Shown here: positions 2,905 to 11,083 of the stretch, piece by piece
Layout of the letters: the number at the start of each line of letters is the position of its first letter
Numbering within the stretch: position 1 is the stretch's first letter
Source of the DNA: a bacterium
Lineage (GTDB): Bacteria > UBP15 > UBA6099 > JAJRTR01
Reading direction: 5' to 3'
NCBI GenBank assembly: GCA_024278215.1
Contig: JAJRTR010000040.1
Span: 1 to 11,133 of the forward strand
DNA length: 11,133 nucleotides
Notes under the pieces: generated by a model
What the model saw: the letters and a program-made list of their open reading frames with translations, nothing else
Told to the model about the DNA's origin: nothing
Database searches by the model: none
Program-made: the position numbers and the translations under genes

Positions 2905-4608
2905 TTACAGAAATTTGCGTTCTTCGTAAGTGCCGAAGATGTCTTTGAGTCCCTGCACGATTTCGCCGAGCGTGGCGTGCGACTCGATGCAGTTGATGAA
3001 GTGCGGCACGAGGTTTTCCCTGTCCGAAGTGGCGGCTTTTTTCATTTCTTCGAGTGCGTTGTTTGCCGCGGCCCTGTTGCGTTTCTGTTTGAATCTCCTC
3101 ACGCGCTCGACCTGTTCGTCTTCGGTTTTCTGCTCGATCTTCAGGAGTTCAATATCCGGCTCGATACCCTGGTTGAATACGTTTACTCCGACGAGGTACT
3201 TCGTCTTCTCCTCGAGTTCTTTCTGGTAGCGATATGAAGCCTCGGCTATTTCTTTCTGGAAGAATGCGTTGTCCAGCGCCTTGAGCACGCCGCCCATTTT
3301 CTCCACACGAGCCTGGTAGTCGTAGAATGCCTGTTCCATATTATTTGTGAGCGCTTCGACATAGTAGGAACCGGCGAGCGGGTCGACAGTGTCAGTGACT
3401 TCCGTTTCATAGGCGATTATCTGCTGGGTGCGGATAGCGATCTGTGCAGCTTTTTCAGAGGGGAGCGCGAGCACTTCGTCCATCGAGTTCGTGTGCAGCG
3501 ATTGCGTGCCGCCCAGCACGGCGGCCATGCCTTCAAAAGCCGTTCGGACAATATTGTTTTCCGGCTCTTCGGCAGTGAGCGAAACGCCTGCGGTCTGCGT
3601 GTGGAACCGCAACATCATCGAGCGCGGATTCTGCGGATTGTACTGCTTTTTCATCTCGCGGGCCCATATCCGGCGTGCCGCGCGGAACTTCGCTATCTCC
3701 TCGAAAAAGTCGATATGCGAATCGAAAAAGAACGACAACCGCGGCGCGAAATCATCGACATCCAGACCCGCCTCGACTCCGCGCTGGACATAGAACAGCC
3801 CGTTCAGAAGTGTGAAGGCCAGTTCCTGTTGCGCGGTCGAGCCCGCCTCGCGTATGTGGTAGCCGCTGATGCTGATGGTGTTCCATCGCGGCACGTTTTC
3901 CGCGCAGAACGCGAATACGTCGGTGATGATCCGCAACGAGGGTTCGGGCGCGTAAATCCAGGAATTCTGAGCCTGGTATTCTTTAAGGATGTCGTTTTGT
4001 ATAGTGCCGCCGATTTTGTCGAGTGACACGCCTTGCTTTTTGGCAACAGCTATATACAGCGAAAGCATGATCGCCGCCGGACCGTTGATCGTCATCGAGG
4101 TAGTCACCCTGTCGAGCGGTATCTCATCGAACAGATTTTCCATGTCCTCGAGTGTGCAGATCGCCACACCGCAACGCCCCACTTCTCCGATGGACATCTC
4201 GTGGTCCGAGTCGTAACCCATGAGCGTGGGCATATCGAATGCCGTGCTGAGCCCGGTGCCACCCTGCGACAGCAGGAACTTGAATCTTTCGTTCGTCTGT
4301 ATCGCGGTGCCGAACCCCGAGAACATCCGCATCGTCCATATCCGGCGGCGGTACATCTGTTCGTGTATCCCGCGCGTGTATGGGTAGCTGCCCGGCGCTC
4401 CGAGGTCCGACGCCGGATCAAAACCGGCTATATCTTCAGGGGCGTAGAGAGGGTTGACCGGTCTGCCCGATAATGAAGTGAACTCTGTGCGTTCAATTAT
4501 TTCAGGCTTGTTGGAACTGTTGGATTTATTGATGTCAGCCGATGCCGTCTCAGGGGACCGATGCGGGACAGCACATCCGGTTGCCTGATTATTGTTTGTC
4601 TCTTTCAT
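2905..4608 (-). CDS. icmA: Cobalamin-dependent acyl-CoA mutase large subunit, probable isobutyryl-CoA mutase
   Basis: A 567-residue large subunit of the methylmalonyl-CoA mutase family, catalytic barrel only. Clear family blocks: YPYTRGIHEQMYR (75-87), WTMRMFSGFGTA (91-102), AFDMPTLMGYDSDH (123-136), TIQNDILKEY (202-211), SISGYHIREAG (246-256), and LGGTQSLHTNSMDE (365-378). His251 aligns with the conserved active-site His. Phe96 and Gln214 replace the Tyr and Arg (P. shermanii Tyr89/Arg207) that hold the methylmalonyl carboxylate. This Phe/Gln pair marks isobutyryl-CoA mutase, which interconverts isobutyryl-CoA and n-butyryl-CoA. The C-terminus lacks the B12-binding domain (no DxHxxG), so a separate small subunit is needed. 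The ATG at 4608 has AAGGAA 7 nt upstream; the open frame extends to 4815 only inside meaB. Residues 1-35 are a Ser/Asn-rich, poorly conserved extension. Confidence 0.85.
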   Translation of the reverse strand: MKETNNNQATGCAVPHRSPETASADINKSNSSNKPEIIERTEFTSLSGRPVNPLYAPEDIAGFDPASDLGAPGSYPYTRGIHEQMYRRRIWTMRMFSGFGTAIQTNERFKFLLSQGGTGLSTAFDMPTLMGYDSDHEMSIGEVGRCGVAICTLEDMENLFDEIPLDRVTTSMTINGPAAIMLSLYIAVAKKQGVSLDKIGGTIQNDILKEYQAQNSWIYAPEPSLRIITDVFAFCAENVPRWNTISISGYHIREAGSTAQQELAFTLLNGLFYVQRGVEAGLDVDDFAPRLSFFFDSHIDFFEEIAKFRAARRIWAREMKKQYNPQNPRSMMLRFHTQTAGVSLTAEEPENNIVRTAFEGMAAVLGGTQSLHTNSMDEVLALPSEKAAQIAIRTQQIIAYETEVTDTVDPLAGSYYVEALTNNMEQAFYDYQARVEKMGGVLKALDNAFFQKEIAEASYRYQKELEEKTKYLVGVNVFNQGIEPDIELLKIEQKTEDEQVERVRRFKQKRNRAAANNALEEMKKAATSDRENLVPHFINCIESHATLGEIVQGLKDIFGTYEERKFL

Positions 4609-5569
4609 AGGAACTTTCCTTGAAAAGAATTTTAAATATTTCCGAAGAAGCAGAGTAGGGGTCGGTCTCTCCGCGTTCCACTTTATCGGCCCGTGCTTTT
4701 GTACGCGGGATCGTGTCCACGAGCCCGTCGCGCATAAGCCGCCGGAACTGAAACTGCAATGCCTCGTCGAGGTCCGCGCGCGGATCGTGATAGTTTTCCA
4801 GGCGGCCCGTATCATTCAAATAATTGTAATGTCTCTTAACTTCTTCCCAGATATCATCCGTGCCTTTATTGTCGCGCGCGACACATTTAATCACGGGTAT
4901 CTGCCATCCGTCGCGTGGATGTCCGAAAGCGAATAGTAGCGTTTCAGCAATTTCGTCGGCCCCGTCGCGGTCTGCTTTATTCACAATCACTGCGTCGGCA
5001 AGCTCGAGTATCCCTGACTTAAGAATTTGTATCGTGTCGCCCGACTCGGGCACAAGGACCAGGAGCAGCGTTTCGGCGATATTCCTTATGTCGTATCCCA
5101 CCTGGCCGAGTCCGACGGTCTCGATCAGAATGACATCCGCGCCGAAGGCCTCAAGAAGCAGCGTATGATATTTTGTCGCTTCGGCCAGTCCGCCGAGGCT
5201 CTGCCCGGATGCGACGCTTCGAATGAAAACGTCCTTCAGGTTATAAGTGCCGCTGAGCCGGATTCTGTCGCCGAGCAGCGCGCCGCCCGTGATGGGTGAT
5301 GTCGGGTCGATGCACAGGACACCGACGCGGAGTTCGAGTTCGTGCGCTTTCCTTATGAGGTTGCCCAGCAGCGTACTTTTCCCGGCGCCGGGAGGCCCGG
5401 CCAGGCCGATGCGGCGCGCCGGTTTTATTCTCGGATAAACGTCCTTCATTATTTCCGCCACAGCATCCGGGTCCCGCTCGACAACAGACATCAGCCTCGA
5501 GAGCGCCCTGACATTTCCTTCGAGCATTCTCTTTACCAACTCTTTGTTTGCCAATACGTCTGCCGACAT
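4589..5569 (-). CDS. meaB: MeaB-type GTPase, chaperone of the B12-dependent mutase
   Basis: A 326-residue G3E-family P-loop GTPase (MeaB/ArgK type). It gates cofactor loading and protects the adenosylcobalamin mutase from inactivation, in the cytoplasm. An N-terminal helical part (LVKRMLEGNVRALSRLMSVVE, 11-31) is followed by the Walker A GPPGAGKST (58-66), the segment CIDPTSPITGGALLGDRIR (86-104), the Walker-B region ILIETVGLGQ (147-156), and the guanine-specificity motif NKAD (197-200). The C-terminal helical arm (about 265-320) mediates dimerisation in this family. Length is typical. The gene is first in a two-gene operon; its stop lies inside the mutase start, overlapping by 20 nt, which suggests translational coupling. 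The ribosome binding site at ATG 5569 is weak (GAGAA about 12 nt upstream). The order GTPase then mutase matches the domain order of fused IcmF. Confidence 0.93.
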   Translation of the reverse strand: MSADVLANKELVKRMLEGNVRALSRLMSVVERDPDAVAEIMKDVYPRIKPARRIGLAGPPGAGKSTLLGNLIRKAHELELRVGVLCIDPTSPITGGALLGDRIRLSGTYNLKDVFIRSVASGQSLGGLAEATKYHTLLLEAFGADVILIETVGLGQVGYDIRNIAETLLLVLVPESGDTIQILKSGILELADAVIVNKADRDGADEIAETLLFAFGHPRDGWQIPVIKCVARDNKGTDDIWEEVKRHYNYLNDTGRLENYHDPRADLDEALQFQFRRLMRDGLVDTIPRTKARADKVERGETDPYSASSEIFKILFKESSYERDKQ

Positions 5570-6743: not shown

Positions 6744-6808
6744 TTACATGGCGTTATTATCATGTTTATTCGCGACAAGTGCGATCTGATATGAGGGAGC
6801 ATATATTC

Positions 6809-9800
6809 ATGATCAAATTTGAAAAGACAGTCATTATAACATTTATATTTATGGTGGCAGTTTCATGCAGTGCGTGTGCGATGAACACAAAGCTGAATGA
6901 TGCCGTACTGCAAATGAAAAAACTCGTCTTTCAGCCGCTTGAAAAATGGCAGATGTCGTCGAAAGTGACAAAAGAGGAAGCCCTGGATGTCAAGACGAGC
7001 CGAAAACGATTTCGCAAAGTCGGCATCGGCTACTTCTGGGCGGACGCGCAAACGATATGGCTGCGCACGCGCTATGTCGTGCCGGAGAAACTGCTCAACA
7101 TGCCGGTTGCAGGAACAAAAATCGCTATGTCGGCCAATATCGAGGACTATGGCGAGATATATGTGAATGGTGAACTCAAGCAGATATTTCGAAGATCGAC
7201 AGGATATATTGTGCTCACGGAAAACGCGAAGCCCGGTACGAAATATTACATCGTTATCATGGCGCGCAGAAAGAGCAACGACTCGGGCCTCATTCGCGAT
7301 ATAAGCCTCGAATATGAAATGTTGCACGATCTTGAATTACGCACCATCGGCTATACCGAATCTTTCGATGCGCTCGCGACACTTTTTGATCTTACGGGGC
7401 AGAACCCCGAAGACTGGCGCGCCACTCTCGACGAGGCCGGCGGCGCTATAGACATAGACGCTCTGAAAAACGGCGAGATAGATAAGTTCTACACGTCACT
7501 TGATGTGTCGGACCGCATACTTGAACCCCTCTCGAGGATATTTAAGCAATACACCATGCTGCTGATGGCATACTCGCATATCGACGCTGCCTGGATGTGG
7601 GATAAGTACGAAGCCGAGAATGTGATTGTTAAGGGCACGAGCGAGAAAGTGCTGCAACTCGAAAAGGATTTCCCCGGTTTTATCTACGTTATGAACCAGA
7701 TGCACTGCTACCGATGGATGGAGCGGGATTATCCGGAACTGTTCGAGCGGATAAAGGACGCGATCAGGCGTGGCGTGTGGGAGCCGATGGGGGCCGAGTG
7801 GGTCGAGCCCGACGGCAACCTGCCAAGCGGTGAAAGCTATGTGCGGCAGTTCTTTTATGGCCGCAAATATTCACAGGAAAAATTGGGTTATGTCAGTTCG
7901 GTCGGCCTTACTCCCGATTCTTTCGGCTACAACTGGAACCTGCCGCAGATACTCGCGAAAAGTGACATGCGCGGCTTCATCACGCAGAAAATAAGCTGGA
8001 ACGACACGACGGTTTTTCCGTACAATCTTTTCTGGTGGGAGGCGCCGGACGGCACGCGCCTGCTGACTGTTTTTCCGCAGGGTACATACTCTGAGACGGT
8101 CGACGGCAACACGATGGCCGATCAGTTGCGCCGGATAAATAAGAAACACGGCGTGAAAAGCAACCTTGTCATCTGGGGTATCGGCGACCACGGCGGCGGC
8201 ATCCCGCGCAACTATGCCAAACGCGCATTCGGACTCAAAGAGTCGCCGATCTATCCGAAAATCGAGTTTGTCAACGGCGAGATGCTCTATGACAGGCTGC
8301 TCGAAAAATCAAAGGAACTCGATTTCCCTGTTGTCGACGATGAACTCTATCTCGAATACCACAGAGGCACATATACAACACAGGCCGAGACGAAAAACAA
8401 TAACAGGCGTAACGAACACTGCCTGATGAACGCCGAACGTTTTTCGTCTATCGTATCTATCGAGAGCGGCGAGGTTTACCCGACTGGAAAAATAGAAGAA
8501 GCGTGGAAGATGCTGCTCTTCAATCAATTCCATGACATACTGCCCGGCTCGTCGATCCCGAAGGTATATGACGACGCTGATATTGATCATGCGTTTGTCG
8601 CCAGAGAATGCGGCGATGCGCGCCGGGCCGCTATGTCGCGGATCGCAGATTGGGCGCTTACTATCAGCGATGGCGAGCCGCTGGTTCTCTTCAACGGCCT
8701 GTCGTGGTCGCGTGCAGGGCTTGTCGAAGTCGAGGTGGACGAAGGGCTCCCGGAAATCTCGATTTTCAACGAGCTGAGAGAGGAAGTGCCGGTGCAGATA
8801 GTGCGGGACGAGGACGGCACGCGCAAAGTGTTGTTTGTTGCGCGAAGCGTGCCTGCCATGGGCTATGCCGTGTATACGATGAAGCGCGGCAAGCGGCCCG
8901 AAGGTTACGCCCGTCCGCTCAGTGTCGACGGCACGACGATGGAAAATGAATACTACAAAGTAGTTGTGGACCCTGCGACCGGCTGGGTATCGAGCATATA
9001 CGACAAAAAGAACAACGTAGAGGTGGTCGAGCCGGGCGGGGCAGCGTTCGAGTTGCAGGCACGCCATGAAGTGCCGAAGTCGAATGCGTGGGACATGTGG
9101 TTCCCCAAAGACGGCGGACATATAGAGATGCCGCCGCCGTCGAAAATCGAAATCGTCGAGGAAGGCCCGGTGAGAGTCACTATCAGGGTCACAAGGCCGT
9201 TCGGCGAGCAGGACGAATTCCGGCAATATTATTCTCTCGTCGAGGGTGTGCCGATAATATACGGAAAGCTCGATGCGGACTGGCAGGACAGAAACATATT
9301 TCTGAAATCCGCCTTCCACCTCAACCTCGACGCGGACTATGCAACCTATGAAATTCCTTATGCGGCGATTAAGCGAACAACGAAGCCGAAGACGCCCGCC
9401 GAGAAAGCGAAGTGGGAAGTCAGCGGCCATCGCTGGGTCGATTACACAGATAAAGAAAAGAACTACGGTGTCACACTTCTGAGCTACAACAAGTATGGTT
9501 ACGACACGAAAGGAAACGTGATGAGGATGACGATGCTGAGGTCGCCGGGCAACCCCGACCCGGACGCCGACAGGGGCACGCACAGCATACCATACGCGCT
9601 CTATCCGCACACCGGCGACTGGCCGGATGCCGAAAGTCAACTCAGGGGCCGCGAGTACAACGATCCCATTATGGTCGTCCGGACGGGCACACGCGCGGGC
9701 CGGCTCGGCCTGCGCCACAGTTTCTTTTCAGTGAATCCTCCCAGCGTAGTCGTGACCACTATTAAAAAAGCCGACTATGGCGAAGGGTTCATCGTAAGGC

Positions 9801-9979
9801 TTGTCGAGACAGCCGGCAAAGACACAACTGCTGTACTGAACCTGCCGGATGAACCGAAGAAGATTGTCGAGACGAATCTCGTCGAACGCGACTTGGGCGA
9901 ACTGGCCGGGCTCGACGGCGACAGGATAAAGATTCCCATAGGGCATTACGAAATCAAATCTTTGCGCGTCATATATTGA
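6809..9979 (+). CDS. Glycoside hydrolase family 38 alpha-mannosidase, exported, possible lipoprotein
   Basis: A 1056-residue GH38 enzyme that would release alpha-linked mannose with retention, using a zinc ion. Residues 1-24 form a signal peptide; AVSC (17-20) could be a lipobox, giving a membrane-anchored lipoprotein. A beta-rich domain follows (about 60-180, with YGEIYVNGELKQ), then the catalytic domain. Zn ligands read as His257 and Asp259 in AYSHIDAAWMW, the nucleophile/ligand Asp370 in TPDSFGYNWNLPQIL, and His575 in NQFHDILPGSSIP. FPYNLFWWEAPDGTRLL and GIGDHGGGIP are also family-typical. The C-terminal beta-domains start near 920 nt before the end of the family core (MENEYYKVVVDPATGWVSSIYD). 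ATG 6809 is chosen because AGGGAG lies 9 nt upstream and the signal peptide begins there; upstream in-frame GTG 6779 and ATG 6791 have no such site. No transporter or regulator is adjacent. Confidence 0.92.
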   Translation: MIKFEKTVIITFIFMVAVSCSACAMNTKLNDAVLQMKKLVFQPLEKWQMSSKVTKEEALDVKTSRKRFRKVGIGYFWADAQTIWLRTRYVVPEKLLNMPVAGTKIAMSANIEDYGEIYVNGELKQIFRRSTGYIVLTENAKPGTKYYIVIMARRKSNDSGLIRDISLEYEMLHDLELRTIGYTESFDALATLFDLTGQNPEDWRATLDEAGGAIDIDALKNGEIDKFYTSLDVSDRILEPLSRIFKQYTMLLMAYSHIDAAWMWDKYEAENVIVKGTSEKVLQLEKDFPGFIYVMNQMHCYRWMERDYPELFERIKDAIRRGVWEPMGAEWVEPDGNLPSGESYVRQFFYGRKYSQEKLGYVSSVGLTPDSFGYNWNLPQILAKSDMRGFITQKISWNDTTVFPYNLFWWEAPDGTRLLTVFPQGTYSETVDGNTMADQLRRINKKHGVKSNLVIWGIGDHGGGIPRNYAKRAFGLKESPIYPKIEFVNGEMLYDRLLEKSKELDFPVVDDELYLEYHRGTYTTQAETKNNNRRNEHCLMNAERFSSIVSIESGEVYPTGKIEEAWKMLLFNQFHDILPGSSIPKVYDDADIDHAFVARECGDARRAAMSRIADWALTISDGEPLVLFNGLSWSRAGLVEVEVDEGLPEISIFNELREEVPVQIVRDEDGTRKVLFVARSVPAMGYAVYTMKRGKRPEGYARPLSVDGTTMENEYYKVVVDPATGWVSSIYDKKNNVEVVEPGGAAFELQARHEVPKSNAWDMWFPKDGGHIEMPPPSKIEIVEEGPVRVTIRVTRPFGEQDEFRQYYSLVEGVPIIYGKLDADWQDRNIFLKSAFHLNLDADYATYEIPYAAIKRTTKPKTPAEKAKWEVSGHRWVDYTDKEKNYGVTLLSYNKYGYDTKGNVMRMTMLRSPGNPDPDADRGTHSIPYALYPHTGDWPDAESQLRGREYNDPIMVVRTGTRAGRLGLRHSFFSVNPPSVVVTTIKKADYGEGFIVRLVETAGKDTTAVLNLPDEPKKIVETNLVERDLGELAGLDGDRIKIPIGHYEIKSLRVIY

Positions 9980-10432: not shown

Positions 10433-11083
10433 TCAGAGTTCGAGGACTGTGCAGACTTTATTTTTCAGCCATTTAATAAACTGCCCGTCGGCTCTCCTGT
10501 TGTCGGCAGGCTGTATCTGTTTCCGGAACGGGAAGTCATCAATCAAATCGAAATTGAACATAACTTCATATAAAAGATCTCGCGTTTCATCATCAGTTTT
10601 CTTCATGCAGGCGGTCGCGACTCCCGGCATGAAAGATATCAGCGGATAGTATGAGCTGTACATATTTATCACCAGCCAGCCCATAACGGAATATCGTTTT
10701 TCCTCTTTTAATCCGGGACACATTTCTTTGTCGGGTGTAAGTGCATAAGCAGGGACGCGATCCGAGTTGTAATATTGCATCACGGGGAAGAACCTGCAAG
10801 CGGCGGGCCTGAAATGATGTATCGAACACAGGTTGCTTTCCAGAAACACACACCTTTTCCTGTTCAACTTCAACAGGCATATCGGGTATGTGCCGTACTC
10901 GAATCTTTTTTCGTAAATAATGTATTTCCCGTTTATTTCATCGGTTGTAATATTAAGGTTGTTACGCAGGTTCCAGACATCGAGGGGATTGAGAAAAATC
11001 TCGAGCCCGCTCTTGCAGCATGTGCCGCAACATTTGCATGAAAACCGGATTATATCATCTTCGTTAAGTTTGTCGTTGTACAT
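10433..11083 (-). CDS. YkgJ-type cysteine-cluster protein (putative metal or Fe-S binding)
   Basis: A 216-residue soluble protein of the YkgJ/UPF0153 type, whose members carry a conserved cysteine cluster thought to bind zinc or an iron-sulphur cluster; the reaction is not known. The N-terminal motif FSCKCCGTCCKSG holds Cys16, 18, 19, 22 and 23. The second cluster is Cys69, Cys78 (RCVFL), Cys86 (LCSIHHFRPAACRFFP, with His89) and Cys96, matching the family CxFL...C-x-IH-xxRPxxCRxFP pattern. Two more cysteines, at about 122 (MCPG) and 159 (TACMKK), lie further on. Length is normal for the longer members. The ATG at 11083 has only a weak GGGA site 4 nt upstream, but the cluster begins at residue 16, so little can be missing. 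It is convergent with the mannosidase gene and no maturation or redox partner is visible. Confidence 0.85.
   Translation of the reverse strand: MYNDKLNEDDIIRFSCKCCGTCCKSGLEIFLNPLDVWNLRNNLNITTDEINGKYIIYEKRFEYGTYPICLLKLNRKRCVFLESNLCSIHHFRPAACRFFPVMQYYNSDRVPAYALTPDKEMCPGLKEEKRYSVMGWLVINMYSSYYPLISFMPGVATACMKKTDDETRDLLYEVMFNFDLIDDFPFRKQIQPADNRRADGQFIKWLKNKVCTVLEL

Follow-up and report, generated by a model that had tools for sequence, protein, structure and literature searches.

A standalone Phe/Gln acyl-CoA mutase encoded next to meaB is probably the large subunit of an isobutyryl-CoA mutase

Within the family of B12-dependent acyl-CoA mutases, methylmalonyl-CoA mutase (MCM) holds the carboxylate of its substrate through Tyr89 and Arg207 (numbering of MutB from P. 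shermanii). A Phe/Gln pair at these two positions, taken from characterised enzymes, is a marker for isobutyryl-CoA mutase, and an Ile/Gln pair is a marker for 2-hydroxyisobutyryl-CoA mutase (HCM), represented among solved structures by HcmA (PDB 4r3u). Isobutyryl-CoA mutases are known as a two-subunit type with a standalone large subunit, such as IcmA/IcmB of Streptomyces and Slip_0757-0760 of Syntrophothermus lipocalidus, and as IcmF, one fused chain with a B12 domain, a G domain and a mutase domain. The isobutyrate isomeriser Syntrophothermus lipocalidus has a gene cluster for proteins with the mutase N- and C-terminal domains, an adenosyltransferase and a MeaB-like protein (PMC5017805). 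The misnaming of isobutyryl-CoA mutases as MCM has already been described for IcmF (PMC7764203).

Here, we analysed a stretch of 11,133 bases (the window) that forms one entire contig (C9) of a 4.55 Mb genome, assembled in 207 contigs and 95% complete. A stop-free reading frame on the reverse strand (positions 2905 to 4608) encodes a standalone B12-dependent acyl-CoA mutase large subunit of 567 aa, as identified from its translation, family matches, alignment and tree position. Among the initial 50 codons, the ATG at 4608 is the sole ATG, GTG or TTG, and it is preceded by a purine-rich stretch. The protein consists of a single domain and lacks a B12 domain. The start of its gene overlaps by 20 bases with the 3' end of the gene directly upstream, meaB (4589 to 5569, reverse strand; over the cut-off of NCBIfam TIGR00750 and matched by Pfam MeaB), which encodes the G-protein chaperone of B12 mutases, and the operon comprises only these two genes. 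Just 3' of the mutase gene, a 15-base inverted repeat found by eye (2826-2840/2874-2888; AACCGTTTACGGTAT / ATACCGTAAACGGTT) is possibly a terminator or regulatory hairpin. The remaining neighbours, including an Hsp20 gene and an HU-type gene, have no obvious link to acyl-CoA metabolism. Among them are a GH38 alpha-mannosidase-like protein of 1066 aa that matches all four GH38 Pfam domains (6779 to 9979) and a CxxCxxCC putative zinc- or iron-chelating protein (10433 to 11083).

The residues that bear on substrate choice could be read directly from the translation, with Phe96 in WTMRMF (codon 4321 to 4323) and Gln214 in KEYQAQN (codon 3967 to 3969), both on the reverse strand and counted from the ATG at 4608. 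When the protein was aligned with a broad set of mutases that included MutB of P. shermanii, human MCM, Sbm of E. coli and HcmA, the original prediction was confirmed: these residues occupy the columns of MutB Tyr89 and Arg207, where HcmA has Ile and Gln; the catalytic His (MutB His244 column) is retained. Written as the letters at these two columns, the pairs in the 88 aligned sequences are F/Q in 32 (the window protein included), Y/R in 52 and I/Q in four; the mixed pairs Y/Q and F/R are absent from the collected set, and seven more sequences beyond the 88 have other pairs. Because the orthologues from the same order in other genomes, which are 70-76% identical to the window mutase, carry F/Q in five of five cases, the pair is not a chance occurrence. 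The segment AFDMPTLMG, earlier described as IcmA-like, proved characteristic of the F/Q proteins and HCMs, and the column of MutB His122 contains Leu or Ile in each of the 36 rows with F/Q or I/Q and Gln or His in each of the 52 Y/R rows.

Trees were built without the two diagnostic columns. MCM was represented in them by MutB, Sbm and the human enzyme, and further references were HcmA, MeaA, IcmF-type proteins and Xaut_5043, a candidate pivalyl-CoA mutase; F/Q proteins of high-GC genomes, rather than a named characterised IcmA, stood for the IcmA type. In a tree of 43 rows, the standalone F/Q and I/Q proteins form one side of a branch that separates them from the Y/R proteins (ultrafast bootstrap 100, SH-aLRT 95), and the window mutase falls inside this F/Q and I/Q clade, outside the MCMs and MeaA. 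In quick trees made from larger sets, the query together with its nearest well-supported relatives from beyond its own order forms a group of F/Q and I/Q rows only (SH-aLRT 96 and 95). The six proteins of the window order form one clade (support 100), to which the tree assigns no firm position among HCM, the high-GC F/Q proteins and the others inside the F/Q clade; a split that joins the query clade to the Y/R rows would also arise from a query clade at the base of the F/Q group. The Streptomyces plasmid mutases that we examined are Y/R types or IcmF. Elsewhere in the collection, one genome of 2.5 Mb (G038; L085-L091, L097, L098) has 19 mutase-family matches, several with the unusual active-site pairs I/G, V/G, Q/A, L/N and L/L, and some of these group with Xaut_5043.

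With the IcmA/IcmB and Slip_0757-0760 systems, the window mutase shares the standalone large subunit, the length class, the F/Q pair and the Ala before Phe117, and as in the two-subunit type of Syntrophothermus its partner is MeaB (PMC5017805). It differs from the two-subunit enzymes, of which the named examples lie outside our alignment, in second-shell letters of its own and in having the B12 subunit outside the cluster. IcmF has the F/Q pair too but, in contrast to the separate genes found here, is a single fused chain and stands far off in the tree. The letters around the pair, RMF and QAQN, match those of IcmF despite that distance.

For a family-wide comparison of gene neighbourhoods, 15 marker proteins served as queries against the loci of 22 F/Q mutases and 25 Y/R mutases, labels being phmmer best matches above 40 bits. 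Since the loci are phylogenetically related, the p values serve as guides only. Y/R relatives adjoin propionyl-CoA carboxylase and epimerase genes, and one or other of these propionate genes is present at 16 of 25 Y/R versus two of 22 F/Q loci (Fisher p 2e-4), or at 11 of 19 versus 0 of 14 after removal of the high-GC genomes and L075 (p 5e-4). Acyl-CoA dehydrogenase, crotonase and thiolase genes, on the other hand, often adjoin the F/Q relatives; beta-oxidation genes occur at 11/22 F/Q and 2/25 Y/R loci (p 0.0025), and in the reduced set at 5/14 and 2/19 (p 0.11). A B12 subunit is encoded nearby at 16 of the F/Q loci versus four of the Y/R loci. The clearest locus (G039) encodes a thiolase, 3-hydroxybutyryl-CoA dehydrogenase (hbd), crotonase, acyl-CoA dehydrogenase, F/Q mutase, B12 subunit and another acyl-CoA dehydrogenase. 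A second one (G027) is similar to the cluster for isobutyryl-CoA mutase in S. lipocalidus (PMC5017805), as it encodes an acyl-CoA dehydrogenase, cobalamin adenosyltransferase, F/Q mutase, CoA-transferase subunit, B12 subunit and MeaB. These contexts fit butyryl/isobutyryl-CoA metabolism. They support the butyrate/valine-type role, earlier proposed for the whole operon, for the mutase; no beta-oxidation gene is present in the 11,133-base window itself.

The genome contains only two matches to the MM_CoA_mutase family. A scan of genome contigs with the window mutase protein gave a single locus, a distant one. The second mutase, at C182:68333, is also standalone but has the Y/R pair. Its contig carries an epimerase-type glyoxalase, a carboxyltransferase protein and succinate dehydrogenase/fumarate reductase genes, and a biotin carboxylase is encoded near the mutase, which suggests that propionate metabolism is covered by this second enzyme. 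The only small mutase-type B12 protein of the genome (C182:53398-53745, 135 aa) is encoded about 15 kb from the Y/R mutase, and the window holds the sole MeaB that exceeds the family cut-off. Since the genome, itself incomplete, has one of each, the B12 subunit and MeaB are probably common to both large subunits. The earlier claim that the operon as a whole does not serve propionate metabolism thus goes too far, as the sole MeaB and the sole B12 subunit, the latter on the MCM contig, probably serve the propionate MCM too. In another genome (G005), the gene of the small B12 protein adjoins the F/Q mutase orthologue. The window genome also has 39 B12-binding-domain matches, most of which lie in ORFs of 440-660 aa, a length that would suit radical SAM proteins that bind B12.

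The window gene very probably encodes an isobutyryl-CoA mutase large subunit, an assignment that the original prediction had made and that is supported by the residue pair, the tree, the separate Y/R mutase and the gene contexts of the family. The large substrate-binding subunit would pair with the small B12-binding subunit from C182, the product of the adjoining meaB would load adenosylcobalamin, and the holoenzyme would reversibly interconvert isobutyryl-CoA and n-butyryl-CoA, Phe96 and Gln214 standing in for the carboxylate-holding Tyr and Arg of MCM. In the cell, isobutyryl-CoA, e.g., from valine, could be passed via butyryl-CoA to beta-oxidation, or the reaction could run in reverse. An aerobic-type valine route looks absent, because no protein of the genome scored as a methylmalonate-semialdehyde dehydrogenase above the cut-off of that family. 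Together with 18 acyl-CoA dehydrogenase matches, 3-hydroxyacyl-CoA dehydrogenases and seven 2-oxoacid ferredoxin oxidoreductase-type matches, this makes the route from valine or isobutyrate via butyryl-CoA plausible.

Automatic annotation would call the protein an MCM, and NCBIfam and Pfam indeed name it no more specifically than methylmalonyl-CoA mutase (N-terminal domain). The adjoining meaB would suit an MCM too, and the fold family and the catalytic His are shared with MCM. That it is an MCM despite its F/Q pair is nevertheless highly improbable: both carboxylate-binding residues are lost, the fused B12 domain is missing, the tree places it in another clade, and the same genome has a Y/R mutase near propionate genes. 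It also scores below the equivalog cut-offs for MCM, IcmF (355 versus 1500 bits) and the small subunit, although the MCM model (640.8 versus 876 bits) also covers the fused B12 domain. An HCM can be given equally little credence, even though HcmA gives the strongest match in the PDB (2.1e-165), has Gln at the Arg207 column and belongs with the HCM clade to the same F/Q and I/Q group. The window protein has Phe rather than Ile at the MutB position 89, and its Ala at the HcmA-specific Asp (DFDMPTLMG; Asp in 4/4 I/Q and Ala in 32/32 F/Q rows) makes this function unlikely; HCM clusters moreover carry a CoA ligase and a GntR regulator, neither of which is present at the window locus.

Substrates of other chain lengths deserve more weight. 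The earlier wording that F/Q defines isobutyryl-CoA mutase is too strong, since the pair is a marker taken from characterised enzymes; it would select against a carboxylate and leave chain length free. The lineage has second-shell residues of its own (Met95, Gln212 and Asn215 in the window protein): residue 95 is Met or Leu in five of the six members of the clade, and residue 215 is Asn in this lineage and Lys in most standalone F/Q relatives. Xaut_5043, with an L/N pair, further illustrates how easily substrates change in the family. A mutase mainly for another non-carboxylated acyl-CoA (valeryl/2-methylbutyryl-CoA or isovaleryl/pivalyl-CoA) is still unlikely, as the Xaut_5043-type sequences differ in their pair and lie far off in the tree, and the F/Q relatives occur in short-chain beta-oxidation contexts. 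There is a small chance that the clade of the window order, marked by these second-shell residues, is a separate F/Q branch that acts on something other than butyryl/isobutyryl-CoA and has one B12 subunit and one MeaB in common with an MCM of the same cell.

The putative isobutyryl-CoA mutase of the window is probably an ordinary enzyme under the wrong name, of a known kind for which this happens often, and its case corrects a likely misannotation as MCM. Automatic annotation could be aided by the MutB His122 column as a third perfectly separating position. For the organism itself, only one of the two mutases in the genome should serve to infer propionate metabolism.
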